Source: Lepidurus packardi
Lineage: Eukaryota; Arthropoda; Branchiopoda; Notostraca; Triopsidae
NCBI GenBank assembly: GCA_023053545.1
Contig: JAKZAN010000001.1
Span: forward strand, 4,794,565-4,858,564
Direction of reading: 5' to 3'
Length of the DNA stretch: 64,000 nt
Part shown: positions 8,520-62,660 of the stretch, piece by piece
Position numbering within the stretch: the stretch's first letter is position 1
Layout of the letters: every line of letters starts with the position of its first letter
The notes under the pieces: generated by a model
Database searches by the model: none
Told to the model about the DNA's origin: nothing
Seen by the model: the letters and a program-made list of their open reading frames with translations, nothing else
Position numbers and translations under genes: made by a program

Positions 8520-8599
8520 CTGAGGGCACAATACACGAAAACTTTGGGAGAAAATGTAAAAGGCTCCTTCCTGGTTAACGATAGCAAGAAGACTTACCA

Positions 8600-32653: not shown

Positions 32654-32660
32654 GAAAACT
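32654..32660. other. Empty MULE target site (GAAAACT)
   Basis: CACGAAAACTTTGGGAG in the PISD 5' intron of unit D is the uninterrupted form of the site that is split by the 17-kb inverted MULE pair at 44912-44918 / 62087-62093. Confidence 0.75.
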
Positions 32661-32739
32661 TTGGGAGAAAATGCAAAATGCTCCTTTCGGGTTAACGATA
32701 GCAAGAAGACTTATCAAAACAAGTGACAAACAATGAAAG

Positions 32740-35339: not shown

Positions 35340-36040
35340 TCTCTGCAAACGCATGACGCATAGTCCACAGACGACATTATTTCTGACTCTATGTACCGCA
35401 CAGATAGTGAATTAAGTCTGTTCTCTTCTGTGGTAGATCTTAAATAATTCTTTACTCTCTTTAATGCTGAAAACGACCGTTCTGCCGAACAATTTCACCC
35501 CGGTGTACATAACAGCATCCGGAGCGCTATTCCCACGTTTGGGTAAATATCCAAAAAGCCTTTTTCCAGAATGTACTTCTATACGTCCAGTAACGATAAC
35601 TCTTTCCCCCATTTAGCCTCACCTGCAACAAATGAGCTCGCAGGTGTAGACACTCGTTTTCCAAAGTACCATCCAAATCCCCTGGATAGAAAGCTTGCAG
35701 GTTCCGTGCTCCATTACGGATGTCTTGAGATTCCAAATTACGAAGCTTCGTGAGAAAGTCAAACTTTTGACTTAAATTCTCGTAAGCAGAGCCAGGTCTC
35801 TGTAGTTCTGCAATCAACCTGTCAATAATGACGTTGAAGACGGTGACACTAAATCTGTCCCTGTCGGTCTCGGAGAGTTCGACCCCCTTTTCCTTTACTT
35901 CGTCAAACAGGACTTTTCGCTTACGTTTCCTCTTCATATCGTATGCGTAATTCTGTTCACCACTTCTTTCCATAGCTTTCGACTCATAATGATCGAAGAT
36001 ACCGGCTTTCCTTAAACCTTCTAGGTATGTTACCAAGGAC
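35340..36040 (-). pseudogene. hAT transposase C-terminal fragment (ZMYM/KRBA-like family)
   Basis: Open from about 36036 to 35527 (includes KRKRKRKVLFDEVKEKG, FSVTVFNVIIDRLIAEL), then a frameshift, then NCSAERSFSALKRVKNYLRS and EENRLNSLSV (about 35490-35390), the hAT C-terminal dimerisation region. The DDE catalytic Asp residues of the N-terminal half are absent. The family placement rests on the SAERSFSALKRVKNYLRST motif. Confidence 0.8.
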
Positions 36041-44242: not shown

Positions 44243-44735
44243 CTACGGTTTAGAATTTTGAGCGATAGCTTGACCGACTCGAACGATTTGCCCAAGCTGG
44301 ACGGTAAATTTAAAGTCCTTGGGGGCCTGAAAAATAAGGACCATTGTAGAGCCAAAGTTAAACTCACCGAATACTTCACCTTTCTCCTGATGGAGACCCT
44401 CCCCGCCTGCACGTTCCTTGTGGAAGTTGTAGTCCGTCGTCCTGCGACGTCCGGCACGACAGTTTGTTTCCAATTCCTACAATACAAAGAAAAGAAAACT
44501 GTTAAGTCACTTTCAAAAACGCAAACTCGTCGACTAACTTACTGGATCTTTATAGACTCGTATGGAGAAGACATTGGTAGCTCCTACCGCTGTCATGCTG
44601 AACAAGCCGTACTGCCACTGGCCAAAGTAAACGGCTCGCTCGTTGAGGGCAAGTAAGCCGGGGACCCATTTGCAAACGCTTGGGTTCACACTAAACATTT
44701 CCTCTAAGATAATATTCCGGTTAGTAACACCGGTT
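44243..44735 (-). pseudogene. PISD: Truncated phosphatidylserine decarboxylase, unit F
   Basis: Only the last two exons remain (44543-44703 and 44243-44476). The final exon is type 1 (FGST) with His for Arg in NFHKERAGG. The other exon is type 2 at its 5' side and type 1 at its 3' side, and its ATNV-SI context reads Phe instead of Gly. At about 44735 the sequence jumps to the region upstream of the PISD 5' exons (TATCGAAAGGG), deleting three exons. Confidence 0.8.
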
Positions 44736-44736
44736 A

Positions 44737-44918
44737 GTATCGAAAGGGAAAAATCACAGCACTCGCGGTTGAAACTATTTGGCTAAGCTTCTTCTAAGAC
44801 TAGATGTACTTGAATGGCAAACAAAAAGGCAAAAAACGCTTACCCATGGTCCAGGCAACCCGGATGAAATAAGGAACCTTTTAAGGTTTAAAAACTGAGG
44901 GCACAATACACGAAAACT
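44737..44918 (-). other. PISD: PISD 5' exon/intron segment left of the MULE pair
   Basis: Corresponds to about 18970-19160 of unit B and 32480-32660 of unit D, including the tentative 17-codon exon in its ATAAGGAACCTTTTAAGG form. It stops at CACGAAAACT, where the inverted MULE structure begins; the same locus continues at 62087. Confidence 0.7.
44912..44918. repeat. Putative 7-bp target duplication of the MULE pair, left
   Basis: GAAAACT before the element end ACGTTAGGCTA; repeated at 62087-62093 after the opposite end TAGCTTAACGT. The unit D empty site has one copy. MULEs usually make 8-11 bp duplications, so the exact length is uncertain. Confidence 0.7.
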
Positions 44919-45020
44919 ACGTTAGGCTATTGCAACCCCATCTTTCCAGTTTTTCCAGACCGCCGCAATCCGCCGCAAGCCGCGGCAACTCGCATAAAAG
45001 CGGGTTTAGGCATGTTGTAG
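44919..45020 (+). repeat. Outer terminal/subterminal inverted repeat, left end
   Basis: ACGTTAGGCTA matches the inverse of the right end (ACGTTAAGCTA) at 10 of 11 bases. The block CCGCAAGCCGCGGCAACT and GCATAAAAGCGGGTT recurs at about 53223-53254 in the same orientation and inverted at about 53108-53135 and 62026-62060. These could be transposase-binding sites. Confidence 0.65.
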
Positions 45021-48000
45021 GAGTTGGCTTAAAAGCAGCAAAACACATAAACCAACAGTGTTGCACGTGATCTGTATTTTTCTCCCCATGCTTTGCCGCG
45101 GCTGACGCCCGAGGGTGCTTAGAACCAAAAGAATAAATATTATGTGTTCAGTATGGTTTTTGACAACTGAGAAATAAAACGGAATGGATATTGATATGAC
45201 TAAAAACGTACAGCGAAAGTTGAATGTTACCCCAACAGCCTCATCCTTTGTTGTTTAGTAACAAGTTTTAACTAAGAAGACCATTGCCCGAATTATGCTT
45301 TTAATTAATACCTTAAGTAAAAAATAAAAACCTTAAATACAAAAAATAAAGGACGAGAAGTTCGAAACTTTTCTTTGGGAACGTATGATGCTGCTGCTGA
45401 CTTTTTTCTTCGTTCCATTCTTCTTGTAAGACACCAAGTATGACTGGTAAACTTATTACTTATGGTGTAACGAATATTACTTTGACCCATAGAATTTCCG
45501 GAGCTCTAAAATAGGAAAGCATTTTTTTCGTGACGGCCATATCGAGAGTTTCAAAGCGTATGATCGTATCCTTGATAAATGTATGCCCCGGAAAGAAAGG
45601 GAATGTTGTATTTGTGTAAGGATGTGTATTCGTATTAATTAACCTTGGTGTTGGGGGATTCTGTTTGGTATTTGACGTAAGTCTGTGATCTGACCTTATT
45701 CTACTTGTACTTGTACTGTTGATTGACCGCACTCGGACGACTTATTGTTGTATTGTACTTTCTATATTTGCGTCCTGAACTACCCGTATATATGCTCCTA
45801 CGGTTTCGAATACAGTCAGTTTATATTTGCTTAAACAATGGTTTTGGGAAAAAAGGTTCCTGTGTTGTGCTTTACTGAATAGACCAGCGGTTTGTTTGGA
45901 CTGCTGCATTATAGCTAATTATCAAAGTCAGGCAGCAACCATGATTAACTTATAAATGAGCTACATGACGCTTGCCTTAGATCACAAGAATTACAATGAC
46001 AAATGTAGGGCGTTTAGATTTGTTAAAGGAACTTGTTTTACTAGACTACTTTTTACAAGACCTCGAGTAGATTGTGTGATTGCTCGAAGAAATCTGTGCT
46101 TGTACCTATCCTGAATCCAAAAAGTTTTTATCCGCCTGAGGTAATCTCTAGAGAATTGGAGGCTGTATACAGCAAGTCAAGGAAGTGATCAGCTTACGCC
46201 AAGGGTAGCATAATTAAGGAATACTACTGTAGGAAACTGTTTTGGGCAAAATAAGATTGTTTTGATTGTTTGGGCCGAGTGGATTCGGTCTTGGCACAAC
46301 GGTAAGATCCTGCAAGTTTATTCAAACTATTCTTCGGTTAAATTGGTCAGTAATCTACATCAGCGTCTAATCAAGACTGGGTGCTTGGCGGATTCGATTA
46401 TATTAACAAGAGAACGCGCGTGAGACCTCAAGGGCCATTGGACCCGAAGAAGAAGAGGAACGTTTATAAAACGTTTGATCGGAATGTGCAGAATGGCTAA
46501 ACAATATACAAAAGGAAATGTACAGTCAGAAGCAAACGGTGTGAATGAAAGAGAAAGGAGAAGTCGGAAGTCTGATCTGATACTTGATTTTTGGCATCTT
46601 GGAAGTGAGCTGTACGTGGTCAGCTATAATTGTGTAGGGATTGTTCTTTACACTACTACGTATGGAGGAACACCGTCGGCTATCTAGTGTCTTCCGCCTT
46701 CTATGCAACGCTATGTTTTAAGCCACATAACATTACATTCTTCGTATAAAAGCTAATAATCTTATTATAGCCAAATTTGCAAAACAGGTAAGAAGTGTAA
46801 AAGCAATGAGCAGATGCGGGCACTAGCAAAAATAAGGAAAAATCTCAAAATAGTTAGAAAAGATTTTGTAGACGTTGCTACTTCCTGTCAAAGTCGATCG
46901 GGAGTTATGAGCTTTTGGTTTTCGTGGACCGTCGGAACGTGGGAAGAAAAGACAGGAAGGGAATACACGGTGAGCTAACTTACCGACTTCGAAGAATAAG
47001 CAGCTTCTATAAGCATGGGTTAATGTTGTATTAATATAGTCTAAGTGTCTTTATTCTGTATGGCAAGCAAAATTCACTCGTTACACAGGGTTAAAGTAAT
47101 CACGGATCAAAAGTAAAAACTCGACTTTACTGTTCGCACTCTGGTACACGACTTGCCTTTTCTAGCTCTCGTACGTGACTCATCCTACTACCACAGTATT
47201 TATTTTTTCAAACGTAGTCTACCTGGGTACAACTTTTTCCGAGGTTTGCGAAATGTGCTTATTTGTCAACTTGCGCTTCAGTTAATGAGAATTAGGGTGT
47301 CTACACGGGGTTTAATGGAAATTAACCAATGTTCTTAGAACTTGAAACAATCTCAAGAATTGGAAAGCTTAATCGATGGCTAAAATTTAATTCAGGTTCG
47401 CAACGAGATGTTTATTGAACTCATGGAGAAGGATTGGGCGTCTTTTTCACCTTTATTTGGACTTCATTTGGAAAAAAACTAGAATAAATGAGCCCAGTTT
47501 GGATTTGATATGGCCCGCCAAAAAGAAGTACAGATGAAAACCCAACAGAAGTGAGTAAAATTCTCAAAATATTTACCACTCTGAAATAAAAACTCGAAAT
47601 GTGGTCCGTTTTCGCCGTTTATTGACACGACAGAGAGAATAGACGTAGATTGTTTGCAGAAGTCGGTCAAAAGTCTTCCAAGTACCCTCCACCCCCTATT
47701 TTCGCGGTATTGGTATGGGAAGGTCGTGAAGAACGAAAGAAGCAAAAGTGAAGGACATTTATTTTGATCGCAAGAATTAAAATGAAAAGACAATGAAAGT
47801 GTTGGGCTTTTTAGATTATAGTTAAAGGAACTTGTTTTACTTGGCTACTTTTACAAGAGCTTGCGTAGATTGCGTGAGCGCTGGCGAAGAATTACATCTT
47901 TTGCCTATGCTGATTCCACTTTATATATCCGCAAGAGATAATCTCCTATATAGGGTATTGGAGGCTGTTCTACGAAAAGTCTAGGAAGTGCTAGCCAAGT

Positions 48001-48593
48001 TAAGTCAATAGGCCCTTCTAAGGAATAAGTATAAAGGAACACAATAAGAAAGTCAACATAGAAGACAACTCATAAGGGGTCCAAAGAGGGCAACTTAGAA
48101 TTTCCTATTAGGGAATTCTGGAACCGGTGTTGCTGAAGCAAATTTTTTTCATAGCTTAAGTTTATGACCAGTTGATTTGGCGTAAGTTATCTTCGTATTA
48201 GTTATTACAGTAGCATATATTGTATATAAGTAGTTATCTTTGTATATAGCTTCTTTATCAGTACCGGTTCTTACAATTCTTATTCTTATTTGTATCAGTT
48301 CTTATTTATTTGATAGCATTTTTTTAAAACAGTAAACAGAAAAGACACATAGCCCATCAGCTATGTAGTGTCTTCTTCTATCAACACTATTAAACCGCAT
48401 GGCAAATTCTTCATATAAGCCAAATTTGGAAGACAAAGTTTGAGGTAGAAAAGCCTAAAAACAAGTAGTGGGTGCGGGGCAATAGCAAAAGTAAGGAAGA
48501 TTCTGGAAAAAGCAGAAAAGATTGTGTAGCCTACGTACCGTGGGAAGAGAAGACAGGAAGGGAGTACACGGTGAGCAGTACTGACTTTTTGCC

Positions 48594-48665
48594 TAAAAGC
48601 CTAAACCCGGAGCGACTAGGCGGCAAAACCTCGAAAAGCCGAAACCCGGAGCGACTATAGGCAAC
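48594..48665 (+). repeat. Two-copy short tandem repeat in left arm
   Basis: AAAAGCCTAAACCCGGAGCG and AAAAGCCGAAACCCGGAGCG, about 38 bp apart; mirrored in the right arm at about 57641-57712. Confidence 0.7.
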
Positions 48666-49154
48666 CACCTAGCAGTCTACAAAGTTGTATTTAGTTTTTT
48701 TTAGTTGAAAAGAGTGCTGACATGTCAGTTATTAAGCTTTTTTGTATGTACAGTAGTTGCTTCTGGTTACCTTTTTTGTTATGCACACTTCCGTGGCCGC
48801 TGTAATAATGCTGTGACCGCATAATGCCTATTAAAATATGCCTGAAAAAATAAAAATTACTTTGTAAAATAAAAAAAATATTTTTCTTGTTTAATTGTAT
48901 ATTTCTGCAATGTTCTAAAAAAATTCAAATTTCAAAACACAACACAACACAATGAAATGGAATTCACAACAATTCAAAGTGCTTGCGGGTCCCACTCAGC
49001 GATGACACGGTTACCGAGTGTACTGATATTAATATTCCAATACATCTCAGTCGTGTCACGGTGTGTGGTACCCCTTTTTACCTTCACACCCATAAACTCA
49101 ATTCACAACCATACATCGAATTCACAATCATAAATACAATTCAGCTTGAAAACT

Positions 49155-49331
49155 TAAATCACAACTTTGCTGAATATAATTGCTGATGTATAACTCGCAG
49201 ATTATTTGGAAACACGAATCACAACTTTGCTGCATATAGCTGCGTTCTGCGAGTAAGACTATCAGACTTCGTGGAAACTAAAAATCACAACTTTGCTGCA
49301 CATAGCTGCACCCTGCGAGTAAAACTCCCAA
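49155..49331 (+). repeat. Three-copy tandem repeat downstream of the left MULE ORF
   Basis: Units of about 60-68 bp sharing AATCACAACTTTGCTG, ATA(T/G)(A/C)TGC and CTCGCAG/CTGCGAG. Mirrored at about 56975-57151. Function unknown; it lies just beyond the ORF 3' end and could hold 3'-processing or binding sites. Confidence 0.75.
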
Positions 49332-49408
49332 ACTACCTTTGACTACCTTGACACTTATTGACATGAATACGGCAATAAAATGCGAAGTCAATCAAAAAAT
49401 TGCTATTG

Positions 49409-52400
49409 CTAATTAGTATTGCTTTGCGAAATGCAAAGCAATACTACATTATCCCTTTCATTAACACAGACAAGGCATATGTACTGAATATCATGTAAGT
49501 CGTCCATTGGTATACTATTTAGGCATAAATCTGGCTGCTGCTTGTGAGCGCAAGTTATATGAAACCAAGACTTACACACGCTGCAACAAACCCAAGTAAT
49601 ATCATCATCAAGGTCGTCATCAGGATCGTTTCGTTTGCTGCAACCAGCGCAGAGTTGCGGTACGATGTCATCTAAAACGTCGGATGGCTGATCGCTAAAT
49701 CCATGTCTTAGAAAGACATTCGATGGTTTGTTATTGTACGGCTTGCGCGTCCGATGAAATTCTCTTTGAGGTATAAATTTGGCATTAGAACGGACGTCAG
49801 TTAATTTCTCGAACGTCTCTTTTACTATCTTTTCCTCTGGTGGTCTACTGTTAACAAGTCTTGCTGTAGCCACAAGAATCTCCAAATCACGGATGGCTCC
49901 AGGATCAGTTGTTAACGTATTAAGAATCTCGCGCAAGTCTCTACGAATGTTTGCCAAGGAAACGGCTGGCGGTTTAGTTGTTCTAGCTAACTTTTCTAGC
50001 TGGGCATTTTCAGCGATCTGTTGCTCTACTAATGCCGCTCCTATGACACGTGAATGACGCAGATTGTCACTTAAAACTGGGGTAACTCTATGGATATGCT
50101 TGCAGACACCTTCATCTGCAACATTTTGCTTTTTATACAGAAATACCGGATTATATTCCTCTGTTGCCATTTGTTTGACCCACAAGTCAACGCTCTCAGA
50201 ATCGATCTTATGTTTCCGGAAGACACTCGGGTTTTTCTGAGCTAAGTTATGCAGATCTTTCATGGTAACGGCCTGATCCCTAGAAAGTCTATCACCGATG
50301 ATGGTTTCTGCCATACAACTCTCAACAATTTTGCGTTTAGGGATTCCGATAAAAAGCTTCTGTTGTAATTCTTGTTTTGTTTCTTTATGAAGGCGACAAC
50401 GTCCTGGTAAACGATCATGGCCAACATGAGTTAGGCAACATGTAACATCAATTCTTTTTGTAAGGTGCCATACTTGCGCAATTATAAAGCTGGTACAATA
50501 AACATCTGTACGACAAGATTTTAGTCGTTTCAGGGCACGTTTGCCCGTACCCTCATTTTTATACAAGAAAGAGCGATTGCACACGTAGGTTGTTGTACTG
50601 TAACTAGTGCACTTTCGAGCTCCCCTTCTATTACGAAAACTAACACATGCACTTCTTTCTATCTCTGTTTTCCATGACAAGAAACTGTTCTCGTCAGTAA
50701 AACTGAGTTCGTCTAGCTTGCAGGACAAACCATGACTGTTAGCATGCTCAACATAAGACGTCAGACGTGACAGCTTCGCTTCACAACCAGGGTAATAGCA
50801 AACTATTCTTGGTTGCTGTTCGAGCTTTCTCTTTTTTCTAGCAACGCTACAGAATTCATCGTCAGAATCGGTGACTAAAGTACTGCAATTAATGGTATCA
50901 GCAGACACACTACCATCACTAACACTGCTCTGAGACGCAGAACTTGTTACGGGGTCATAAGTCGGCTCTGACTGATCTAACTCGACTAAGGTATGCAATT
51001 GCTGTGTGTTACCTGAAATCATGTCTAAAGAATAATCTTTGGCAACGCTATCACTACCACTGCTCTGAGACGCAGAATGTACTACTGGGTCATGAATCAG
51101 CTCTGACTGATCTAACTCGACTAAGCTAGGCAATTGCTGCTTGTCCACTGAAAACACGGTTAAAGACTGCTGCTCCTTGTCTACCGGGGCAATTAAGGGG
51201 ATCTCCTCGAAAGTACTTGTTTCTTCTAATACAAGAGAATGAACTACGTCTACATGACGGGTGAGCAGGTCTTTTCTAGTAAATTGCAAACTACATTGCA
51301 GGCATTGAAATCTAGACACATGGCACCTTTTCTTTTCTACATGTACCTTCAAATTGTTCTTCCTTGTAAAAACAGTTTTACAGTCTTCACATGTAAAGCC
51401 TTGAGATCCTTGGTCCACAGGAAGAATTTGACTAGAGCTTTGTTTTTCTAGCTGAAGCTTACAGCGCTGGTTCTTAATGTGATTCTCCAAATTTTGATTT
51501 GTTTTAAACGTTGTTGCACATCCCGTGCACGAAAATTTTGCATGCCCTTGCTTATTATGGGAGTCTGCTCTGCCTAGCTTTGCACGAGGTGTTTTATTAT
51601 CATTCGATGAAATGCCTTTTGTGACATTTCCTTCGTGCTCTCCATTTTTAGCGACAACAGCTTTAGGGACTGACAATCCCAACCTTGAGCCTGAATTTTC
51701 ATGGGAGAACGACTCGCGAAGCCCTGAACTAGTGGCGGTACTACTATTTTGCATAGAACTGCATAAGTTAACTACAGGTGCTGCCACACTTGCAGCTTCA
51801 ACTGGGTGATCGAAAATTTCTGATGCAGCTTCTACAAAATCAACAACGGGCAGAGTAGGCCTACAGCAATTCTCTGACAAAAGGACGGGAGATTGACTCG
51901 CACGCTCGCGCTCTAACAAAGGTACAAAATGAATGGGATTCCAGTTAGGTGTAGGGACTAAACGTCCACTTTTTGACCTCGAGCACCCCCTGAAATCCCC
52001 AGTCCACATTATGCGGATAGTTTCCGGCGAAACGACATCATTTGGTGAAAAAGTTTCGTTTAAAAGAAGCGCGGGATGAAGTCGCGCGAGGCTGCCATCC
52101 GCTTTCGGATAAGCCGACTCCACGGCTATCTTACAAACATTAGCCAAAGCTGGGAATGCAAGTATGCTCGAATATTCCAGATTCTTGGTCTGTTCCATGG
52201 AATAGAACTTCAAACAGTCTTCCGTCGGTGGAATACCTGTAGGGCACGCTGTGCCATCATCGCCCGTGAAGATAATACGGTCGAAACGGAATCCTGAGTA
52301 CGTGTTAAGGGCAGTAATTTGTTTCTCGGAGAGGTATCCGGCTGACTCTCTGGAGTACAACTTATAATTAGTCGCCAACTCGACTACAACTCGGCAGCGC

Positions 52401-52762
52401 AACTCAACGGCCATACTTTGGTTGCCGAACAAAGACAAAGAAGCGGAATTGAAGAAACAATTCCCATCTCCTTTGCTTTCCAAAGCTAAAACTCCGCTAA
52501 AACGTTCGGGCAAAGTTTGGCAAGCAGTTTGGTCAATTCTCAAACACCGAAATGACTGCACCCTTGCCACACGGTTTGGTAGAGGGTAGGCAATGAACTC
52601 TTTTTTTTTCGAGAAACATACTTGTCGAAATTTCTCAAAATGTTCATTAGAAATGTTTACGCGCTCTGTCGACGTGCTAACGTAGACCGATGCTGGCAAA
52701 TTAGCTGCATGCTCAAGATCGCGAAGACAGCTTTCAAAAAACAGCGCCCTTGATGTATCCAT
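49409..52762 (-). CDS. OTU protease-zinc finger-MULE-PHD fusion protein, left copy
   Basis: 1117 residues from ATG at 52762-52760; the frame extends upstream only without ATG. OTU domain at about 92-285: D99-G-N-C102 with F following, and H278 in NPIHFVPLL. Zinc fingers C2HC 412-434 and 458-480, C2H2 487-509 and 655-677. A 47-residue linker repeat (SLVELDQSE / TLVELDQSE, about 546-620). A GCM/FLYWCH-like zinc motif at 728-782 ending CCLTHVGHD. MULE N-terminal linker 800-879. A SWIM remnant VCKHIHRV (886-893). PHD finger 1038-1099 (CAGC, WVCCSVCKSWFHITC, YICLVC). The catalytic DDE core and half of SWIM are missing, yet the frame is intact. It may act as a DNA-binding, ubiquitin-editing regulator; function is unproven. 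Confidence 0.75.
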   Translation of the reverse strand: MDTSRALFFESCLRDLEHAANLPASVYVSTSTERVNISNEHFEKFRQVCFSKKKEFIAYPLPNRVARVQSFRCLRIDQTACQTLPERFSGVLALESKGDGNCFFNSASLSLFGNQSMAVELRCRVVVELATNYKLYSRESAGYLSEKQITALNTYSGFRFDRIIFTGDDGTACPTGIPPTEDCLKFYSMEQTKNLEYSSILAFPALANVCKIAVESAYPKADGSLARLHPALLLNETFSPNDVVSPETIRIMWTGDFRGCSRSKSGRLVPTPNWNPIHFVPLLERERASQSPVLLSENCCRPTLPVVDFVEAASEIFDHPVEAASVAAPVVNLCSSMQNSSTATSSGLRESFSHENSGSRLGLSVPKAVVAKNGEHEGNVTKGISSNDNKTPRAKLGRADSHNKQGHAKFSCTGCATTFKTNQNLENHIKNQRCKLQLEKQSSSQILPVDQGSQGFTCEDCKTVFTRKNNLKVHVEKKRCHVSRFQCLQCSLQFTRKDLLTRHVDVVHSLVLEETSTFEEIPLIAPVDKEQQSLTVFSVDKQQLPSLVELDQSELIHDPVVHSASQSSGSDSVAKDYSLDMISGNTQQLHTLVELDQSEPTYDPVTSSASQSSVSDGSVSADTINCSTLVTDSDDEFCSVARKKRKLEQQPRIVCYYPGCEAKLSRLTSYVEHANSHGLSCKLDELSFTDENSFLSWKTEIERSACVSFRNRRGARKCTSYSTTTYVCNRSFLYKNEGTGKRALKRLKSCRTDVYCTSFIIAQVWHLTKRIDVTCCLTHVGHDRLPGRCRLHKETKQELQQKLFIGIPKRKIVESCMAETIIGDRLSRDQAVTMKDLHNLAQKNPSVFRKHKIDSESVDLWVKQMATEEYNPVFLYKKQNVADEGVCKHIHRVTPVLSDNLRHSRVIGAALVEQQIAENAQLEKLARTTKPPAVSLANIRRDLREILNTLTTDPGAIRDLEILVATARLVNSRPPEEKIVKETFEKLTDVRSNAKFIPQREFHRTRKPYNNKPSNVFLRHGFSDQPSDVLDDIVPQLCAGCSKRNDPDDDLDDDITWVCCSVCKSWFHITCAHKQQPDLCLNSIPMDDLHDIQYICLVCVNERDNVVLLCISQSNTN
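49415..49445. terminator. Perfect 13-bp hairpin overlapping the 3' end of the left MULE ORF
   Basis: AGTATTGCTTTGC, loop GAAAT, then the exact complement. It encodes the last residues before stop TAG at 49411-49409. A mirrored copy lies at 56861-56891. It could affect 3' end formation or translation termination; this is inference from structure only. Confidence 0.6.
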
Positions 52763-53021
52763 ATTAAAAGGAAATGAAAAAGTTAATTTGTTAGAAGAAA
52801 AGAAACACAGAATAAAATAAAAACAAACCTTACTCAAAAAATTAATCCAGGGTTAAGAGAATAACTACACTAAATAAGTAATCCGGGGTTATGAAGAACT
52901 ACGGAAAATAAGGAACTACACTAAACAAGAAACTACACTAAATAAGGAACTACACTTATTGCCGACTAGTGAGCGAAAGAAAGTGAAGGACTGAAAGAAG
53001 AAAACATTACATGCAGCGGCC
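52763..53021 (-). promoter_or_regulatory. 5' UTR of the left MULE ORF with TAGTGTAGTTCCTT repeats
   Basis: Contains several near-repeats of ACTACACTAAATAAG / GTAATCCGGGGTTA-type motifs (written on the plus strand). An intron like the one proposed in the right copy has a donor GTAAGG but no AG at the matching acceptor. Confidence 0.4.
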
Positions 53022-53028
53022 TTATATA
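52989..53028 (-). promoter_or_regulatory. Core promoter of the left MULE ORF (TATA + Inr)
   Basis: On the minus strand TATATAA (53028-53022) is followed about 36 bp later by initiator TCAGTC (52994-52989) within TTCAGTCCTTCACT. The same pair at the same spacing precedes the right ORF, which supports both sites. Confidence 0.65.
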
Positions 53029-53089
53029 GTGTGCTGCGGTTTGCAATACCTCGCCTGAAGCCAAATAAGGATTTTGCGGGTCGCTTAGG

Positions 53090-53290
53090 CTCCTCCCCAA
53101 ACATGTCTGAACCCGCTTATGCGAGAGTTGCTGCTTTTGGTAAACAAGGGAAGTCCGGTTAGCCCGTGCAAGTTTTCGTTGGATTGGCTATCACAACCCT
53201 TCTTCTAGCCCGCGGCAACCGCTGCAAGCCGCGGCAACTTGCATAAAAGCGGGTTCAGCCATGTTAGGGGAGGGGCTAGCGATCCGCTGC
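53090..53290. repeat. Central junction of the two MULE elements (back-to-back terminal repeats)
   Basis: The left side reads AACCCGCTTATGCGAGAGTT then GCTGCTTTTGGTAAACAAGG, matching the far right end (62026-62070). The right side reads GGCTATCACAACCC, GCCGCGGCAACTTGCATAAA and AGCGGGTTCAGCCATGTT, matching the far left end. The two inner termini therefore meet around 53167-53177, with a spacer of about 8 bp. The inversion axis of the arms is near 53153. Confidence 0.65.
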
Positions 53291-53313
53291 GAGGGTTGCA
53301 TGCCGCAGCACAC

Positions 53314-53352
53314 TATATAACGCCGTTGCATTGAACCATTCTTCCTTCAGTC
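53314..53352 (+). promoter_or_regulatory. Core promoter of the right MULE ORF (TATA + Inr)
   Basis: TATATAA at 53314-53320 within GCAGCACACTATATAACGCC, and TCAGTC at 53347-53352 within CTTCAGTCCTTCACTG. Equivalent elements face the other way at 53028-52989. Transcription would run outward from the centre on both sides. Confidence 0.65.
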
Positions 53353-53399
53353 CTTCACTGTGTTTCGCATGTTAGCTAGCAATTGTAGCGTAGTGCCTT

Positions 53400-53636
53400 A
53401 TAGTGTAGTTCTTCTAACCCGGATTAATTATTTAATGTAGTTCCTCTTAACCTTGGATTAGATTTTTCAGTAAGGTTATTTTTTATTGCATTCTGTGTTT
53501 CCCTTTGACTTTTTTCTTGGATTGATTATTTAGTTCTGTTCTTCTTTAACCCGGATTATTTTTTTTCCTCTTAACCCTGGATTAGATTATTTGACTTTTT
53601 TCTTCTAACAGATTAACCCTTTCTCTCTTCACTAAT
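53400..53636 (+). promoter_or_regulatory. 5' UTR of the right MULE ORF with AACC(C/T)GGATTA repeats and possible intron
   Basis: Four or more copies of TTAACCC(G/T)GGATTA spaced by T-rich DNA. A possible 5' UTR intron runs from GTAAGG (53470) to the AG at 53611 in TCTTCTAACAG. Supported by consensus only; the left copy lacks the acceptor. Confidence 0.4.
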
Positions 53637-56600
53637 ATGAGTAAATCAAGGGCGCAGTTTTTTAAAAATTGTCTACGCGATCTTGAACGTAGAGCAAATT
53701 TGCCTGCGTCGGCCTACGATAGTTCTTCAAGAGCGCCCATACTGATTAGTAACGAACATTTTGAGAAGTTTAGGCAGGCGTGTTTTTCAAAGAAAACAGA
53801 GTTCGATGCTTACCCTCTCCCGAAGCGTATGGCAATATGGCAATCTCAGAGTTTTAATATTGACCAAATTGACACAACTGCTTCCAGTACTTTGCCCGAG
53901 CGTTTGAGCGAATGTTTAGCTTTGTGCAGCAATGGAGATGGGAATTGTTTCTACAATTCCGCTTCTTTGTCTTTGTTCGGCAACCAAAGGCATGCCGTTG
54001 AGTTGCGCTGCCGAGTTGTGGTCGAATTAGCAACCAATTATGAGTTGTACTCCAGGGAGTCGGCAGGATACCTCTCGATGAAACAAATTGGAACCCTAGT
54101 CGAGTACTCAGGATTCCATTTCGACCGTGTTAAATTCACGGGCGTTGACTCAGTGTGCCCTACAGGTATTCCACCGGCGGAAGACTGTTTTAAGTACTAT
54201 TCCATGGAACACGCCAGGGATCGGGAATATTCGAGCATTATTGCATTCCCAGCTTTGGCTAATGTTTGTAAGATAGCCGTGGAGTCAGTTTATCCGAAAG
54301 CGGATGGAATCAGAGCATCTCATCAAGCGAATTTTTTAAACGAGACGTTTTCACCAAGCGGTGCCGTTTCCTCTGAAACTATTCGAATTTTGTGGACTGG
54401 GCTTTTGGCAAACTTCACGAAGAAGGAAAATGGACGTTTAGTCCCTCCAACATTCTGGAATCCCAATCATTTTGTGCCTGTGATTGAGCGTGCTAGTCAG
54501 TCACCCCTCTTTTTGTCAGAGAACTGCACTCTTCCGGTTCTTGATGTGGTAGAAACTGCGTCAGTTATTCCCAGTCATCCAATTGAAACTGCAAATGTGG
54601 TAACACCTGTTGCAGTTTCTTTTTGCAGCTCTATGCAAAATAGTAGTAGCGCTGTTAGTTCAGGGCTTCGCGAGTCGTTCTCGCATGAAAATTCAAGCTC
54701 AGATTTTGAATTGTCTGTCCCAAAAGCTTTTGCCGCAAATAATGGAGAGCACGAAGAAAATGTCACTAAAGCCATTTCATCGAATGGTAAAACACCTGGT
54801 GTGAAGTCAGGCAGAGTAGTATCTCATACCAAGCAAGGGCCTTCAAAATTTTCGTGCAAGGGATGTGAAACTACGTTCAAAACAAATCAAAATTTGGAGA
54901 ATCACATTAAAAACAAGCGCTGCAAGTTTCAGCTAGGAAAACAAAGCTCTAGTCAGATTCTGCTTGCCGAGCAAGGATCTAAGGGCTTTATTTGCGAAGA
55001 CTGTAAAACCGTTTTCACAAGGAAGAGCAATTTGAAGTTGCATATAGAAAAGAAAAGATGTAGCAAGTCTAGTTTTGAGTGCCCACAGTGTAGTTTGCAG
55101 TTTTCTAGAGCAGACATGCTCACCCGTCATGTAGAATTAGTTCATTCTCTTGAATTAGGCTCTAGTCAAATTTTGCTTGCCGAGCAAGGATCTAAGGGCT
55201 TTACGTGCGAAGTCTGTAAAACCGTTTTCACAAGGAAGAGCACTTTAAAGGTGCACATAGAAAAGAAAAGATGTAGCAAGTCTAGTTTTGAGTGCCCACA
55301 GTGTAGTTTGCAGTTTTCTAGAACAGACATGCTCACCCGTCATGTAGAATTAGTTCATTCTCTTGAATTAGAAGAAACACGTACTTCTGAGGAGATCCCC
55401 TTAATTGGCCCGGTAGACAAGGAGCATTCCTTAAACGTGATTTCAGTTGACAAGCAGCAATTGCACATCTTAGTCGAGTTAGATCAGTCAGAGCCGACTT
55501 ACGACCCAGTAATAAATTCTGCGTTTCAGAGCAGTGTTAGTGGTAGCGTGTCTGCTGATACCATTAATTGCAGTACTTTAGTCATCGATTCTGACGACGA
55601 ATTCTGTAACGTTGCTAGAAAAAAGAGAAAGCTCGAACAGAAACCAAGAATAATTTGCTATCACCCTGGCTGTGAAGAGAAGCTGTCACATCTGACGTCT
55701 TATGTTAAGCATGTTAACAATAAACATGGTTTGTCCTGCCAGCTAGAGAAATTCAGTTTTTCCAACGAGAACAGTTTCATGTCGTGGAAAACAGAGATCG
55801 AAAGAAATGCTTGTGTTAGTTTCCGTAATCGAAGGGGAGCTCGGAAGTGCACTAGTTACAGTATAACAACCTACGTGTGCAATCGCTCTTTCTCGTATAA
55901 AAATCGGGGTACAGGCAAACGTGCCTTGAAGCGACTAAAGTCTTGTTGTACGGGTGTCCGTTGTACCAGCTTTATAATTGCGCAAGTATGGCACCTTACA
56001 AAAAGAATTGAGGTTACATGTTGCCTAACTCATGTTGGCCATGATCGTTTACCAGGTCGTTGTCGCCTTCATGAAGGAACAAAAGAAGAATTACAACATA
56101 AGCTTTTGATCGGAATCGGCATTAATAGATGTGGATTTTGCGGAGCTTGCAGGGAAGTATTTTGGTGCTCGTGTGACGATTTTTATAACTATCATTTCGT
56201 CTGCAAGCATATCCATAGAGTTACCCCAGTTTTAAGTGACAATCTGCGTCATTCACGTGTCATAGGAGCGGCATTAGTAGAGCAACAGATCGCTGAAAAT
56301 ACCCAGCTAGAAAAGTTAGCCAGAACAACTAAACCACCAGCCGTTTCCTTGGCAAACATTTGTAGAGACTTGCGCGAGATTTTTAATACGTTAACAACTG
56401 ATCCTGGAACCATCCGTGATTTGGAGATTGCTGTGGCTACAGCAAGACTTATTAACAGTAGACCACCAGAGGAAAAGATAGTAAAAGAGACGTTCGAAAA
56501 ATTAACCGACGTCCGTTCTAATGCCAAATTTATACCTCAAAGAGAATTTCATCGGACGCGCAAGCCGTACAATAACAAACCATCGAATGTCTTTCTAAGA

Positions 56601-56897
56601 CATGGATTTAGCGATCAGCCATCCGACGTTTTAGATGACATCGTACCGCAACTCTGCGCTGGTTGCAGCAAACGAAACGATCCTGATGACGACCTTGATG
56701 ATGATATTACTTGGGTTTGTTGCAGCGTGTGTAAGTCTTGGTTTCATATAACTTGCGCTCACAAGCAGCAGCCAGATTTATGCCTAAATAGTATACCAAT
56801 GGACGACTTACATGATATTCAGTACATATGCCTTGTCTGTGTTAATGAAAGGGATAATGTAGTATTGCTTTGCATTTCGCAAAGCAATACTAATTAG
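53637..56897 (+). CDS. OTU protease-zinc finger-SWIM-PHD fusion protein, right copy
   Basis: 1086 residues from ATG 53637. OTU: D101-G-N-C104, H278 (NPNHFVPVI). Zinc fingers: first at 407-429, then a two-finger module (about 438-507) repeated in tandem at about 509-578 with a 71-residue (213-bp) period, then C2H2 at 674-697. GCM/FLYWCH-like motif at 748-802 (CCLTHVGHD). The MULE linker found in the left copy is missing; the frame jumps from LLIGI (about 827) to a complete SWIM finger C844-S-C846...C856-K-H858, then a C-terminus identical to the left copy from about NSRPPEEK on, with PHD at 1007-1068. Catalytic OTU residues are kept and the DDE core is gone. No stop or frameshift. Confidence 0.75.
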   Translation: MSKSRAQFFKNCLRDLERRANLPASAYDSSSRAPILISNEHFEKFRQACFSKKTEFDAYPLPKRMAIWQSQSFNIDQIDTTASSTLPERLSECLALCSNGDGNCFYNSASLSLFGNQRHAVELRCRVVVELATNYELYSRESAGYLSMKQIGTLVEYSGFHFDRVKFTGVDSVCPTGIPPAEDCFKYYSMEHARDREYSSIIAFPALANVCKIAVESVYPKADGIRASHQANFLNETFSPSGAVSSETIRILWTGLLANFTKKENGRLVPPTFWNPNHFVPVIERASQSPLFLSENCTLPVLDVVETASVIPSHPIETANVVTPVAVSFCSSMQNSSSAVSSGLRESFSHENSSSDFELSVPKAFAANNGEHEENVTKAISSNGKTPGVKSGRVVSHTKQGPSKFSCKGCETTFKTNQNLENHIKNKRCKFQLGKQSSSQILLAEQGSKGFICEDCKTVFTRKSNLKLHIEKKRCSKSSFECPQCSLQFSRADMLTRHVELVHSLELGSSQILLAEQGSKGFTCEVCKTVFTRKSTLKVHIEKKRCSKSSFECPQCSLQFSRTDMLTRHVELVHSLELEETRTSEEIPLIGPVDKEHSLNVISVDKQQLHILVELDQSEPTYDPVINSAFQSSVSGSVSADTINCSTLVIDSDDEFCNVARKKRKLEQKPRIICYHPGCEEKLSHLTSYVKHVNNKHGLSCQLEKFSFSNENSFMSWKTEIERNACVSFRNRRGARKCTSYSITTYVCNRSFSYKNRGTGKRALKRLKSCCTGVRCTSFIIAQVWHLTKRIEVTCCLTHVGHDRLPGRCRLHEGTKEELQHKLLIGIGINRCGFCGACREVFWCSCDDFYNYHFVCKHIHRVTPVLSDNLRHSRVIGAALVEQQIAENTQLEKLARTTKPPAVSLANICRDLREIFNTLTTDPGTIRDLEIAVATARLINSRPPEEKIVKETFEKLTDVRSNAKFIPQREFHRTRKPYNNKPSNVFLRHGFSDQPSDVLDDIVPQLCAGCSKRNDPDDDLDDDITWVCCSVCKSWFHITCAHKQQPDLCLNSIPMDDLHDIQYICLVCVNERDNVVLLCISQSNTN
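54947..55372 (+). repeat. 213-bp tandem duplication of a two-zinc-finger module in the right ORF
   Basis: TCTAGTCAGATTCTGCTTGC and TCTAGTCAAATTTTGCTTGC start the two units, which are nearly identical through LTRHVELVHSLEL. The left ORF has one unit. Confidence 0.85.
56861..56891. terminator. Perfect 13-bp hairpin at the 3' end of the right MULE ORF
   Basis: Mirror image of 49415-49445; overlaps the last codons before TAG at 56895-56897. Confidence 0.6.
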
Positions 56898-59351
56898 CAA
56901 TAGCAATTTTTTGATTGACTTCGCATTTTATTGCCGTATTCATGTCAATAAGTGTCAAGGTAGTCAAAGGTAGTTTGGGAGTTTTACTCGCAGGGTGCAG
57001 CTATGTGCAGCAAAGTTGTGATTTTTAGTTTCCACGAAGTCTGATAGTCTTACTCGCAGAACGCAGCTATATGCAGCAAAGTTGTGATTCGTGTTTCCAA
57101 ATAATCTGCGAGTTATACATCAGCAATTATATTCAGCAAAGTTGTGATTTAAGTTTTCAAGCTGAATTGTATTTATGATTGTGAATTCGATGTATGGTTG
57201 TGAATTGAGTTTATGGGTGTGAAGGTAAAAAGGGGTACCACACACCGTGACACGACTGAGATGTATTGGAATATTAATATCAGTACACTCGGTAACCGTG
57301 TCATCGCTGAGTGGGACCCGCAAGCACTTTGAATTGTTGTGAATTCCATTTCATTGTGTTGTGTTGTGTTTTGAAATTTGAATTTTTTTAGAACATTGCA
57401 GAAATATACAATTAAACAAGAAAAATATTTTTTTTATTTTACAAAGTAATTTTTATTTTTTCAGGCATATTTTAATAGGCATTATGCGGTCACAGCATTA
57501 TTACAGCGGCCACGGAAGTGTGCATAACAAAAAAGGTAACCAGAAGCAACTACTGTACATACAAAAAAGCTTAATAACTGACATGTCAGCACTCTTTTCA
57601 ACTAAAAAAAACTAAATACAACTTTGTAGACTGCTAGGTGGTTGCCTATAGTCGCTCCGGGTTTCGGCTTTTCGAGGTTTTGCCGCCTAGTCGCTCCGGG
57701 TTTAGGCTTTTAGGCAAAAAGTCAGTACTGCTCACCGTGTACTCCCTTCCTGTCTTCTCTTCCCACGGTACGTAGGCTACACAATCTTTTCTGCTTTTTC
57801 CAGAATCTTCCTTACTTTTGCTATTGCCCCGCACCCACTACTTGTTTTTAGGCTTTTCTACCTCAAACTTTGTCTTCCAAATTTGGCTTATATGAAGAAT
57901 TTGCCATGCGGTTTAATAGTGTTGATAGAAGAAGACACTACATAGCTGATGGGCTATGTGTCTTTTCTGTTTACTGTTTTAAAAAAATGCTATCAAATAA
58001 ATAAGAACTGATACAAATAAGAATAAGAATTGTAAGAACCGGTACTGATAAAGAAGCTATATACAAAGATAACTACTTATATACAATATATGCTACTGTA
58101 ATAACTAATACGAAGATAACTTACGCCAAATCAACTGGTCATAAACTTAAGCTATGAAAAAAATTTGCTTCAGCAACACCGGTTCCAGAATTCCCTAATC
58201 GGAAATTCTAAGTTGCCCTCTTTGGACCCCTTATGAGTTGTCTTCTATGTTGACTTTCTTATTGTGTTCCTTTATACTTATTCCTTAGAAGGGCCTATTG
58301 ACTTAACTTGGCTAGCACTTCCTAGACTTTTCGTAGAACAGCCTCCAATACCCTATATAGGAGATTATCTCTTGCGGATATATAAAGTGGAATCAGCATA
58401 GGCAAAAGATGTAATTCTTCGCCAGCGCTCACGCAATCTACGCAAGCTCTTGTAAAAGTAGCCAAGTAAAACAAGTTCCTTTAACTATAATCTAAAAAGC
58501 CCAACACTTTCATTGTCTTTTCATTTTAATTCTTGCGATCAAAATAAATGTCCTTCACTTTTGCTTCTTTCGTTCTTCACGACCTTCCCATACCAATACC
58601 GCGAAAATAGGGGGTGGAGGATACTTGGAAGACTTTTGACCGACTTCTGCAAACAATCTACGTCTATTCTCTCTGTCGTGTCAATAAACGGCGAAAACGG
58701 ACCACATTTCGAGTTTTTATTTCAGAGTGGTAAATATTTTGAGAATTTTACTCACTTCTGTTGGGTTTTCATCTGTACTTCTTTTTGGCGGGCCATATCA
58801 AATCCAAACTGGGCTCATTTATTCTAGTTTTTTTCCAAATGAAGTCCAAATAAAGGTGAAAAAGACGCCCAATCCTTCTCCATGAGTTCAATAAACATCT
58901 CGTTGCGAACCTGAATTAAATTTTAGCCATCGATTAAGCTTTCCAATTCTTGAGATTGTTTCAAGTTCTAAGAACATTGGTTAATTTCCATTAAACCCCG
59001 TGTAGACACCCTAATTCTCATTAACTGAAGCGCAAGTTGACAAATAAGCACATTTCGCAAACCTCGGAAAAAGTTGTACCCAGGTAGACTACGTTTGAAA
59101 AAATAAATACTGTGGTAGTAGGATGAGTCACGTACGAGAGCTAGAAAAGGCAAGTAGTGTACCAGAGTGCGAACAGTAAAGTCGAGTTTTTACTTTTGAT
59201 CCGTGATTACTTTAACCCTGTGTAACGAGTGAATTTGCTTGCCATACAGAATAAAGACACTTAGCCTATATTAATACAACATTAACCCATGCTTATAGAA
59301 GCTGCTTATTCTTCGAAGTCGGTAAGTTAGCTCACCGTGTATTCCCTTCCA
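56898..59351. repeat. Near-perfect inverted repeat arm (right) of the MULE pair
   Basis: Mirrors about 46955-49408 with a constant coordinate sum of 106306. Differences are rare single bases (for example ATTAGGGAATTC versus ATCGGAAATTC near 48115/58200). It contains the mirrored tandem repeats (56975-57151, 57641-57712). No supported gene. The inverted identity continues into the ORF 3' ends, to about 56456 and 49850. Confidence 0.85.
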
Positions 59352-60104
59352 GAGTTTCCTAATCGGAAATTCTAAGTTGCCCTCTTTTGACCCATTCTGA
59401 GTTGTCCTCTCTATTGACTTCCTGATTTTGTTCCTTCATTTATCCCTTAGAAGCCAGCATTGACTTAACTTAACCAGCACTTCCTAGACTTTTTGAAAAA
59501 CAGCCTCCAATACCCTATAGGAGATTATCTCTGGCGTATATATAAAGTGGAATCAGCATCAGCAAAAGATGTAATTCTTCGCCAGCGCTCACGCAATCTA
59601 CGCAAGCTCTTGTAAAAGTAGCAAAGTAAAACAATGGAATAAACTATGGAATCAGGATAGGTACCAAGAGTTTTTCGAGCAATCACACAATCTACTCGAG
59701 CTCTTGTAAAAAGTAGTCTAGTAAAACAAGTTCCTTTAACTAATCTAAACGCCCTACATTTGTCATTGTAATTCTTGCGATCGTAATCGTCATGCAGCTT
59801 ACTTAAAGTTAATCATGGTTGCTGCCTGACTTTGGTAGTTAGATAATGCACTCCAAAAGAACCTGGTCTATTCATTAAAACTACACAGGAACCTTTTTTT
59901 TCCAAAGCCAAAACCGTCGGAGCTTATATACGGGTAGTTCAGGACGCAAATATAGAAAGATCACAACAATTAGTCGTCCGAGTGCGGTTAATCAACAGTA
60001 CAAGTGGAATAAGGTCAGGTCAGGTCAGATCAAAGACTTAGGTCAAATACCAAACATAATCTCCCAATACCAAGGTTAACTGATAAGAAATACACATCCT
60101 TATA
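59352..60104. repeat. Additional direct repeat copies in the right MULE arm
   Basis: 59352-59640 repeats 58185-58470 (AATCGGAAATTCTAAGTTGCCCTC, CTCCAATACCCTATA, CGCCAGCGCTCACGCAATC in shorter matches). The following part aligns inversely to 45660-46130 of the left arm, with many differences. The first segment has no counterpart in the left arm at this place. Confidence 0.6.
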
Positions 60105-60960
60105 CCTAGGCTATAGATGGGACTAGTTAATGCCGATAATCAACTCCGACTATGCTGAGTTAAATGTGTTTAAGTGAGTCGTCTAGAAACAACAACATTA
60201 ACGCTAATGATAATCAACTGTTAACGAAGTTTCCGAATTGATAAAGTTGTTACAACTTCATTAACTATGACCAACATTTAGCTAATGCCTAAAAGTCGCG
60301 TCTAGACAACTTATCTGATTAAGTTAGGACTAGGATATGACAAAATAGCATTTCGTCACTTCGTAAAAACGTTTTCCTCATATAAATATAAAAAATAACC
60401 AATCCGAATAAAAACCGAATCGGTCTCTTTTCTAGTGTAGGCCTTAACTGATCACAAATGCACCGCAAATAATGCTCTGAAAAAAAATAATTGGCCATAC
60501 GTGAAAACGTCATTTTTTGGTCGTTCGAATGGACTTTCTGTCGATAATGTGTTTAATTATGTGAAGGTGCTACACCTAATAAAGCACTGAAAAGGTTTAG
60601 TCTTGGTAAAGCATATTTCTTCGCGTCGGAAAAAGTCTACATTCCGAAAATGAACAACACGGATGTGAAAGAAAGATGGTTATATAACAAACTGTTTTTC
60701 AGAATGTACTACTTATTTATAGATCTTTATACAAATCAGGAGACGTCTTATTAATGAAACTATATATTTTGATTGATTGTCTCTCCTATTTCTCGCTATT
60801 CTTTTGCGCAAGATGAGCAGCTGGACGAGAATTAAAGTTTCTCCAAGAAAACTTGGACAAACACTTCACTTGTCAAAGGTGTAAGCGGAAACACGTCCAT
60901 CGTTTGCGGTTCAAAATACTTTCTGATAGGAAAGCGACAGTAAAAATACTTTTTGACAGA
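60105..60960. other. Right-arm-only insertion of unknown origin
   Basis: About 850 bp absent from the mirrored left position (around 45560). AT-rich with stops in all frames. No terminal repeats or domains were recognised. Confidence 0.45.
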
Positions 60961-61093
60961 AAAATGTTGTCCACATGCTTCCAAACTCTCGATATGGCCG
61001 TCACGAAAAAAATTCCTTTCCTATTTTAGAGCTCCGGAAATTCTGTGGGTCAAAGTAATATTCTTTGCGTCATAATTAAGTTTACCAGTCAAA

Positions 61094-61505
61094 CAACAGC
61101 TATCAAAGAATTTATTATGCATAAATATAGATAGATCGAGAAATGGACTGTTTCACACAGCCCTCTACGAGACTTGTTGGAAAATGCCATATCTACCAAA
61201 GCACTATGTATGACTCAACAAGACAAGACAGACGTACCATTTCTACTTTAATCAAACTGAGATCCACACATTTTCCTACAGAAGCCTTTTTATAATATCT
61301 CAACACAAGACTTGACACACATTTCCTTCCGGTGTAGACTTTTAAACAGACTAGAGCCTATATTTATTACGTGAACTGGCAAAATTGAAACTACATTTTA
61401 AGTTAACCCACAGACTTTTTTGACTGATCAAAGGCTTTTCCCAATAGTCGTGGCTTTATGTCAGCCTAAGAACTTTGCAAAAAACATAGTCATACTGCTT
61501 GCTGC
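61094..61505 (+). pseudogene. Decayed 3' fragment of a related non-LTR ORF2 in the right MULE arm
   Basis: In one frame it reads RRTISTLIKLRSTHFPTEAF, then in a shifted frame LTHISFRCRLLNR, matching RKTISTLIKLRTAHFPTKTY and LIHVFFHCRLLNR of the intact ORF2 in this window. Absent from the left arm. It is an older, 5'-truncated insertion of the same family, with frameshifts. Confidence 0.7.
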
Positions 61506-61889
61506 CTTACAAGAATTGAAACGAAGAAAAAAATCAGCAGCAGCATCAGATCACTTACGTTCCCAAAGAAAAGTTGCGAACTTCTCGTCCTTTAATTTTT
61601 ATTTCAGGTTTTTATTTTGTATTAAGGCATTTGTTAAGCATAATTTGGTCTTCTTGGTTATAAAAACTTGTTACTTAAACAACAAAGGACGGGGCTGTTA
61701 AGATAACATTCCACTTTCACTGTACGTTTTTTTAGTCATATTAATATTATTTCCGTTTTGTTGCCGTCAGTTGTCAAAAACCCATGCCACCTACTGAACA
61801 CATAATATTTTTATATTTATTATTTCGGTTCTAAGCACCCTAGGGCGTAAGCCGCAGCAAGGCATGGGGAGAAAAAAAGATCACGTGCA

Positions 61890-62086
61890 ACATGCGTTTT
61901 GCTGCTTTTAAGAACCTCCTACAACATGGCTGAATCCGCTTATGCGGCTTGCTGCTTTTAAAACACCTCCTGCAACATGGCTGAATCCGCTATGCGGCTT
62001 GCTGCTTCTAAGCCACCTCCCTCAGAACCCGCTTTTATGCCGGGTTGCTGCTTTTGGTAAACAAGAGGGTCAGACTAGCTTAACGT
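61890..62086. repeat. Right outer terminal/subterminal repeats of the MULE pair
   Basis: Three to four imperfect units of about 50 bp (ACATGGCTGAATCCGCT, GCGGCTTGCTGCTT) lead into the terminal block AACCCGCTTTTATGCCGGGT, TGCTGCTTTTGGTAAACAAG and the end TAGCTTAACGT. The inverse of the end matches the left terminus. Confidence 0.65.
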
Positions 62087-62660
62087 GAAAACTTTGGGAG
62101 AAAATGCAAAATGCTCCTTTCGGGTTAACGATAGCAAGAAGACTTATCAAAACAAGTGACAAACAATGAAAGTTATAGCGTCACTTGGCGTAACTTCCGG
62201 GGTGGCCAGTTCCGGGTTCATTGCGTCATCTAGTGGAGGGGAGAAGGGCGGGAATTTCAAATCTTTACTATCACATTGGCAGGAAATCGAGGACCAAACC
62301 TAAAAATTTCCTTTACAATTACATAGTCCACCTTAAAGAAAAATAGAGTTGCTAACTTCTCGTCATAATGGCGACTTAGAGGGCTTTCTCCGGCAATAAC
62401 TTGCATATGAATCTTAAATGATCTTAGAGATTCGAATCTGTCATGTCATGTTTCCGTCCACCAGATGGCGTAACGAACCCGGAGTGTCGGAGTACGTCTT
62501 TGGTTGGTTCCCGAACCCGCTTCCTTCGGGTTGTTATCAACAGCATCAACGGTAGAGGGTTGGACTAATATGCGATATGTTGACGGCTTCTTTACCGGTG
62601 TCTGGGCGACATTTGATTAATATGGCGGCAAAACAACTCCTGTATAACACCTATAAATCG
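62087..62660. promoter_or_regulatory. PISD 5' intron and variant promoter region, unit G
   Basis: Continues the locus broken at 44918 (GAAAACTTTGGGAG). Matches 32654-33224 of unit D almost base for base, including the 280-bp variant segment with GGGCGGG, so the MULE pair sits in a D-type locus. Confidence 0.6.

Follow-up and report, generated by a model that had tools for sequence, protein, structure and literature searches.

The transposon Galileo has been shown to have made the Drosophila buzzatii inversion 2z3, and the available text of PMC2775673 bases this on exchanged target duplications and chimeric copies. Among Mutator-like elements (MULEs), target duplications of 8-11 bp are given in Table 1 of PMC6446971, which indicates none for many groups. 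Here we describe a locus of the notostracan Lepidurus packardi in which two transposon-like arms, each with an outward-facing open reading frame (ORF), stand head to head. It lies in a stretch of 64,000 nucleotides (assembly GCA_023053545.1, contig JAKZAN010000001.1, positions 4,794,565 to 4,858,564 of the forward strand), here called the window, and all coordinates are positions in that window. The arms form a 17,168-bp insertion (44919-62086) that interrupts one unit of a tandem array. Its layout is probably the outcome of two insertions and a turned middle, whether the organism or the assembler did the turning.

The arrangement shares with Galileo at 2z3 two opposite-facing chimeric copies, target duplications that are exchanged and inverted, and ends that match between the copies, as these are described in the available text of PMC2775673. 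In that account, the Galileo copies flank an inverted chromosome segment, whereas here the two copies are neighbours and the turned DNA outside the elements amounts to just 10 bp. Galileo also belongs to the P superfamily, and the same text has its chimerism checked against further copies, whereas at the present locus chimerism is read from four ends, with no third copy. The pair seems to be a small-scale case of an already known rearrangement, consisting of two insertions and an inversion, and not a new kind of transposon.

The insertion and its target site

A blastn comparison of the inserted 17 kb with the rest of the window (E <=1e-3, low-complexity filter on) gave no match. The uninterrupted target, ACACGAAAACTTTGGGAG, was found exactly at 8533, 19153, 23532, 32650 and 40033 by a search of the window that allowed up to 3 mismatches, and the sixth match of this search is the right junction of the insertion itself. 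The original prediction, made from the letters of the same DNA, had pointed to the intact target in array unit D (32654-32660), to which four other copies can now be added. The flanks of the insertion are nearly identical to those of unit D (99.9% over 1700 bp on the right, 98.3% over 180 bp on the left). With the target intact in five other copies, this indicates that the insertion is real and fairly recent, unless the array has homogenised its flanks. GAAAACT, the 7-bp flanking repeat reported earlier, does border both outer ends. By itself it has 34 occurrences on the window's + strand, and it is thus informative only in a longer context. The arms and target copies are as follows.

44919-53169, - strand: left arm as it stands, 8251 bp, with the outer end of the putative original element 1 and the inner end of original element 2
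53180-62086, + strand: right arm as it stands, 8907 bp, with the inner end of the putative original element 1 and the outer end of original element 2
53170-53179, - strand: central spacer AAGTTTTCGT, the reverse complement of target ACGAAAACTT, interpreted as an inverted middle copy of the target
44910-44918, + strand: left copy of the 9-bp target ACGAAAACT, putative duplication of element 1; the same 9 bp lie inverted at 53171-53179
62087-62094, + strand: right copy of the 8-bp target GAAAACTT, putative duplication of element 2
32650-32667, + strand: uninterrupted target in the closest unit (D), an exact match to ACACGAAAACTTTGGGAG

The two arms are separated by the 10-bp spacer AAGTTTTCGT, which occurs once in the window; its complement ACGAAAACTT is present at the five empty sites only. 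As a control, overlapping 31-bp windows of the element, with starts at 53100-53200 set aside, were compared on either strand with the 20-bp target region. None of the 17,036 windows reached a 10-bp match to the target, and the best match, of 9 bp, was reached in 46. The inner ends that adjoin the spacer are diverged and read GCACGGGCTA on the left (- strand, 53160-53169) and TGGATTGGCTA on the right (53180-53190).

Turning the centre back gives TAGCCAATCCA-ACGAAAACTT-GCACGGGCTA and makes every target copy direct. The full order then becomes ACGAAAACT-[ACGTTAGGCTA...TAGCCAATCCA]-ACGAAAACTT-[GCACGGGCTA...TAGCTTAACGT]-GAAAACTT. In this order the duplication of element 1 is exactly 9 bp and that of element 2 is 8 bp, or 9 bp with one change; both sizes lie within the 8-11 bp of MULEs, and the pair taken as one unit would have 7 bp. 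The ends of each element also match in this order. The outer repeat, GAAAACT, amounts to 7 bp because the 9-bp and 8-bp duplications overlap by that length.

Pairing of the four ends

The terminal sequence ACGTTARGCTA has a single occurrence on each strand of the window (44919, and 62076-62086 in inverted orientation), and the two outer 11-mers differ at one position. The outer termini that had been predicted are present, and no exact inner copy lies at 53167-53177, where a matching pair of inner termini had been proposed.

We aligned the four terminal blocks, a check that the original prediction had itself suggested. Over 110 bp the crosswise pairs were best, with scores of 120 for left outer with right inner and 91 for left inner with right outer. 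The pairs within an arm scored 62 and 54, those in the same position 59 and 68, and the highest scores among 200 shuffles per pair were 50-58. The inner ends were cut at 53167/53168 for these scores, and at 53169/53180 for comparisons over 600 bp and 40-70 bp. At 40, 50, 60 and 70 bp, the crosswise sums (77.5, 99, 127 and 149) were again the best at all four lengths, followed by the same-position sums (62, 79, 87.5 and 94) and the within-arm sums (48, 67, 73.5 and 85.5). In the 600-bp alignments, crosswise similarity extends ~60-105 bp inward, with 84% identity over 74 bp in one pair and 80% over 60 bp in the other. Terminal inverted repeats are present when the ends are paired crosswise.

Blocks in the inner part of the arms, which holds the ORFs, are 73%, 84% and 90% identical and outer blocks 79-80%, and some stretches cannot be aligned. 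The arms also share an inverted tract with 3 substitutions in 2726 bp, or 99.9% identity.

47073-49798, - strand: left inverted identity tract, the proposed crossover zone, which pairs with 56508-59233
56508-59233, + strand: right inverted identity tract, which pairs with 47073-49798
61892-62020, + strand: 2.6 tandem copies of a 50-bp repeat, immediately internal to the right outer end

A 1-base indel lies just beyond the outer edge of the tract, and near-identity continues to ~46955. On the inner side, identity is 96.4% over 309 bp (11 differences), ending where the protein alignment stops, and is then ~90%. The right arm also contains a direct repeat of ~290 bp at 89% identity (58183-58474 and 59347-59634, 1.16 kb apart), with one copy within the tract and the other just beyond its outer edge.

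Proposed history and alternatives

We propose that two DNA transposons related to each other inserted head to head into the same target in one array unit; their lengths would be ~8.2 and ~8.9 kb, irrespective of the point within the tract at which the exchange fell. One insertion would have made the 9-bp duplication ACGAAAACT and the other the 8-bp duplication GAAAACTT, 7 bp of which overlap, and either could have come before the other. The middle of the pair would then have been inverted, most likely through an exchange inside the inverted, near-identical 2.7-kb tract. This inversion would have swapped the inner ends and the ORF halves between the elements, and flipped the middle target copy. 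The inverted central target and the crosswise ends both follow from two separate insertions with an inverted middle, a history in which the pair need never have transposed as a unit. The earlier suggestion that two elements are joined head to head is borne out.

Several observations weigh against this history. For two insertions to fall within a few bp of each other, the elements would have to prefer this target or hop locally, and nothing independent speaks for either. Element 2 has a duplication that matches exactly over just 8 bp, and the control windows for the central spacer overlap one another. The left outer end is nearer to the right outer than to the right inner end at 40 bp (34 versus 28) and 50 bp (43 versus 40.5), and at 60 bp it barely favours the right inner end (54, versus 51 for the right outer). 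The signal that joins left outer with right inner therefore comes mostly from bases past 50. The end motif is repeated within the ends and gives off-register matches, such as that of left inner 32-98 with right outer 128-190 (75%). Deeper inside, the 600-bp alignments match outer with outer at 78.5% and inner with inner at 64%. Finally, no second copy that would confirm the phase was found in IMG/VR, searched with the right protein, or in genome contigs, searched with the left protein.

The same two insertions could also have had their middle turned by the assembler. We regard this as possible but doubtful, and it forms part of the probability given to the two insertions, not an addition to it. 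Identical tracts flank the seemingly inverted segment, and a 2.7-kb inverted pair at 99.9% identity, if unspanned, lets that segment be placed in either orientation. A true 99.9% tract amid arms whose inner blocks stand at 73-90%, however, is by itself a sign of exchange or conversion between them, and the few differences within the tract show that the copies were not simply given one consensus. If the assembler did turn the middle, the turned-back order is the true order, so that the two-insertion history holds in both cases. A turn in the organism, with homologous recombination as its agent, is what we infer for the locus.

The explanations that do away with two separate insertions fare less well. 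The original prediction had suggested that the pair moved as a unit, or is one foldback element. Transposition of a composite or foldback-like element by its outer ends would suit the outer 11-mers, alike but for one difference, the 7-bp direct repeat at the flanks, and the outermost 40-50 bp, over which the left outer end is closest, slightly, to the right outer end. It leaves unexplained the inverted target at the centre and the longer crosswise pairing, and on these two grounds a single composite element was rejected. A foldback element moving as a unit would have matching outer ends and a full-length duplication; here the outer ends over 110 bp favour the inner ones, and the 7-bp repeat falls below the 8-11 bp of Table 1 in PMC6446971. 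We consider movement as a unit very improbable. Almost as improbable is a single-step origin of the pair, inverted centre included, from a hybrid element or another alternative transposition with the ends of sister copies. Such events do yield inversions and element pairs, according to the available texts of PMC2775673 and PMC3744419. In the former, however, hybrid insertion from one site would leave identical copies, and here the inner blocks outside the tract are at 73-90%; the arms are too diverged for hybrid-element insertion between sister copies, which is disfavoured.

Two insertions followed by an inversion would suggest that the signs used to demonstrate that transposons made chromosome inversions are legible even at the smallest scale, where the elements touch. 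What appears as a 17-kb double transposon can consist of two ordinary insertions and a flip. The locus also serves as a warning about assemblies, in which "duplications" of odd length and "composite elements" arranged head to head may stem from overlapping insertions with turned middles.

Reading frames and protein parts

Each arm holds one long outward ORF, as had been predicted. The TATA predicted for each arm near the centre of the pair was also recovered, at 53022 (-) and 53314 (+), within an 18-bp motif, CCGCAGCACACTATATAA, that is common to both arms and lies upstream of each ORF.

49409-52837, - strand: left ORF, 1142 aa, TTG start
53637-56897, + strand: right ORF, 1086 aa
53022-53028, - strand (TTATATA on +): TATA-like TATATAA upstream of the left ORF
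53314-53320, + strand: TATA-like TATATAA upstream of the right ORF

Both ORFs share one order of parts, namely an OTU-like part (DGNC), C2H2 fingers, a Cys/His pre-core, a SWIM-type motif and a PHD-like end. The C2H2 fingers are strong in Pfam in both ORFs (8.9e-11 and 9.7e-18). The pre-core resembles what we take to be the N-terminal parts of animal MULE transposases. The SWIM-type motif, identified by eye, is full (CxCx(9)CxH) in the right ORF only, and the left ORF keeps its rear half. The Pfam OTU matches are below the cut-off, with E=0.006 and 0.028 for trimmed parts; of the whole proteins, one gave 0.056 and the other was not listed. Against the PDB, all 6 matches of the OTU part up to E 1 (0.11-0.38) are to OTUD1 and A20, around DGNC. 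An AlphaFold model of this part had a predicted local distance difference test score (pLDDT) of 35, and no use was made of it. The Pfam PHD match (E=0.0026) has 18.2 bits against a cut-off of 24, and a neighbouring, chance-looking Spore_GerAC_N match is equally strong (E=0.0025). Against the PDB, the C-terminus best matches a PHD protein (E=0.027).

The original prediction had called the arms MULE-like, and had given GCM/FLYWCH and SWIM zinc parts around a DDE core as typical of MULEs. The 8-9 bp duplications and the SWIM-type motif seen by eye make a MULE-like nature plausible. The Pfam models MULE, FLYWCH and SWIM found no match in either ORF, and Pfam detected no DDE core in the two ORFs or in the six frames of 44919-49410 and 59230-61880, a scan that did not extend to the remaining frames across the ORFs, to 52838-53636 or to the final 206 bp. 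No separate DDE scan was made of 56897-59230 because it repeats the left arm. At the missing core the break points differ, falling at ~50107/50108 in the left ORF and ~56117/56118 in the right, and the frame is kept in both. From these differing break points and the kept frames we infer separate internal deletions of the core in each arm, which would make the elements dependent on a full-length relative in trans. Neither arm looks autonomous.

Before the break, the ratio of nonsynonymous to synonymous substitution rates (dN/dS) between the arms is 0.55 (0.45-0.70 in 300 bootstraps). By part it is 0.50 in the OTU part and 0.33 in the pre-core; the 0.64 of the linker and fingers is rough, owing to a misaligned finger duplication. 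These values fit past constraint on the protein in the history of the elements; they are no proof of a present-day function of the core-less proteins. Separate tandem duplications lie within the ORFs, of 213 bp in the zinc-finger region of the right one (54946-55371) and of 135 bp in the linker of the left one (50915-51166). The 3' end of both ORFs carries a 33-bp palindrome with 14-bp arms and a 5-base loop (49414-49446 and 56860-56892).

Relation to described elements

Judged by the size of their duplications, their ends and the order of their domains, the arms probably derive from an animal MULE relative. Since the MULE core was sought and not found, we call them MULE-like non-autonomous remnants and assign them to no clade. 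The only MULE that we found listed with an OTU part is MuDR-6_HM of Hydra, in MULE group 14, whose "Ovarian Tumour Gene" part recalls the OTU-like one described here. It differs in coming from Cnidaria and in having no zinc finger or terminal repeats in its table row, and it is compared here by description only (PMC6446971). Rehavkus, as listed in the available text of the same paper, resembles the present arms in its 9-bp duplications, its PHD finger and a minisatellite before one terminal repeat. It has no OTU or C2H2 listed, whereas here the PHD match is below the Pfam cut-off and the tandem repeat lies at one outer end only.

Zinc-finger proteins and duplications of 8-10 bp are also described for Spectre and Phantom (PMC6446971) and for Tm1 of Meloidogyne (PMC3169594) in the available texts. 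Spectre is listed with C2H2 in PMC6446971, and Tm1 has composite repeated ends (PMC3169594), as here. Unlike the L. packardi arms, all three have a MULE transposase, other ends and no OTU in their table rows (PMC6446971); the word OTU has 0 occurrences in PMC3169594. Ginger1 provides a further comparison: in the available text of PMC2836005 its parts are given as OTU, Ulp1 and PHD, with OTU in some and PHD in one listed transposase. Its OTU part is C-terminal and follows an integrase-type core, unlike the order found here (PMC2836005). No integrase match was obtained in the scanned ORFs and outer arm regions. Ginger target duplications are 4 bp long, versus 8-9 bp here.

The combination of OTU, C2H2, SWIM-type and PHD parts in one element was not found in our searches of open-licence papers on this domain set and these clades. 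The arthropod MULE paper PMC13359780 has 0 occurrences each of OTU, PHD, C2H2 and SWIM. We also searched for relatives at the protein level. In IMG/VR, with the right protein as the only query, there were 3 pattern matches, of which 1 held up in tblastn (L001, 34% over 65 residues). L001 was taken as a chance match: inspected by eye, its ORF resembles a phage terminase with the stretch SNEHFEKF in common. In a genome-contig collection, with the left protein as the only query, there were 10 pattern matches and 0 were confirmed.

The set of OTU-like, C2H2, SWIM-type and PHD-like parts, in ORFs where no DDE core was found, offers a starting point for tracing an OTU-bearing MULE lineage. A bolder reading, unlikely when all its parts are taken jointly, would make the locus a live flip switch. 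The 2.7-kb inverted tracts would still recombine, so that the species would carry the middle (6.7 to 12 kb, by exchange point) in both orientations. The two core-less OTU/C2H2/SWIM/PHD proteins, open across their different in-frame core losses, would act in trans on a full-length relative, as repressor or anti-silencing factor, and would belong to an undescribed OTU-bearing MULE lineage.

The host array

The array units carry exons of phosphatidylserine decarboxylase (PISD) on the - strand, and exons of DUF2368, NOG1 and NOGCT on the + strand. The exon matches of the first unit are given below; those of the other units are similar.

6878-7617, - strand: exon matches, first unit
8969-9106, 9216-9296 and 9679-9828, + strand: exon matches, first unit

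The insertion had been placed in a 5' intron of PISD. The PISD setting is confirmed in that the units carry these exons, and the target lies between the PISD and the DUF2368/NOG1 exon sets (8535 in the first unit), in a PISD intron or in intergenic DNA. The interrupted unit is without ~1 kb that is present in unit D (44731-44738 versus 31471-32479), and the gap ends ~180 bp before the insertion. By coordinates, this loss covers one PISD exon position (7369-7617 in the first unit). A match to a hAT dimerisation domain (35381-35560, - strand, E 1.7e-6) lies in a part of the array that has no long match elsewhere in the window.

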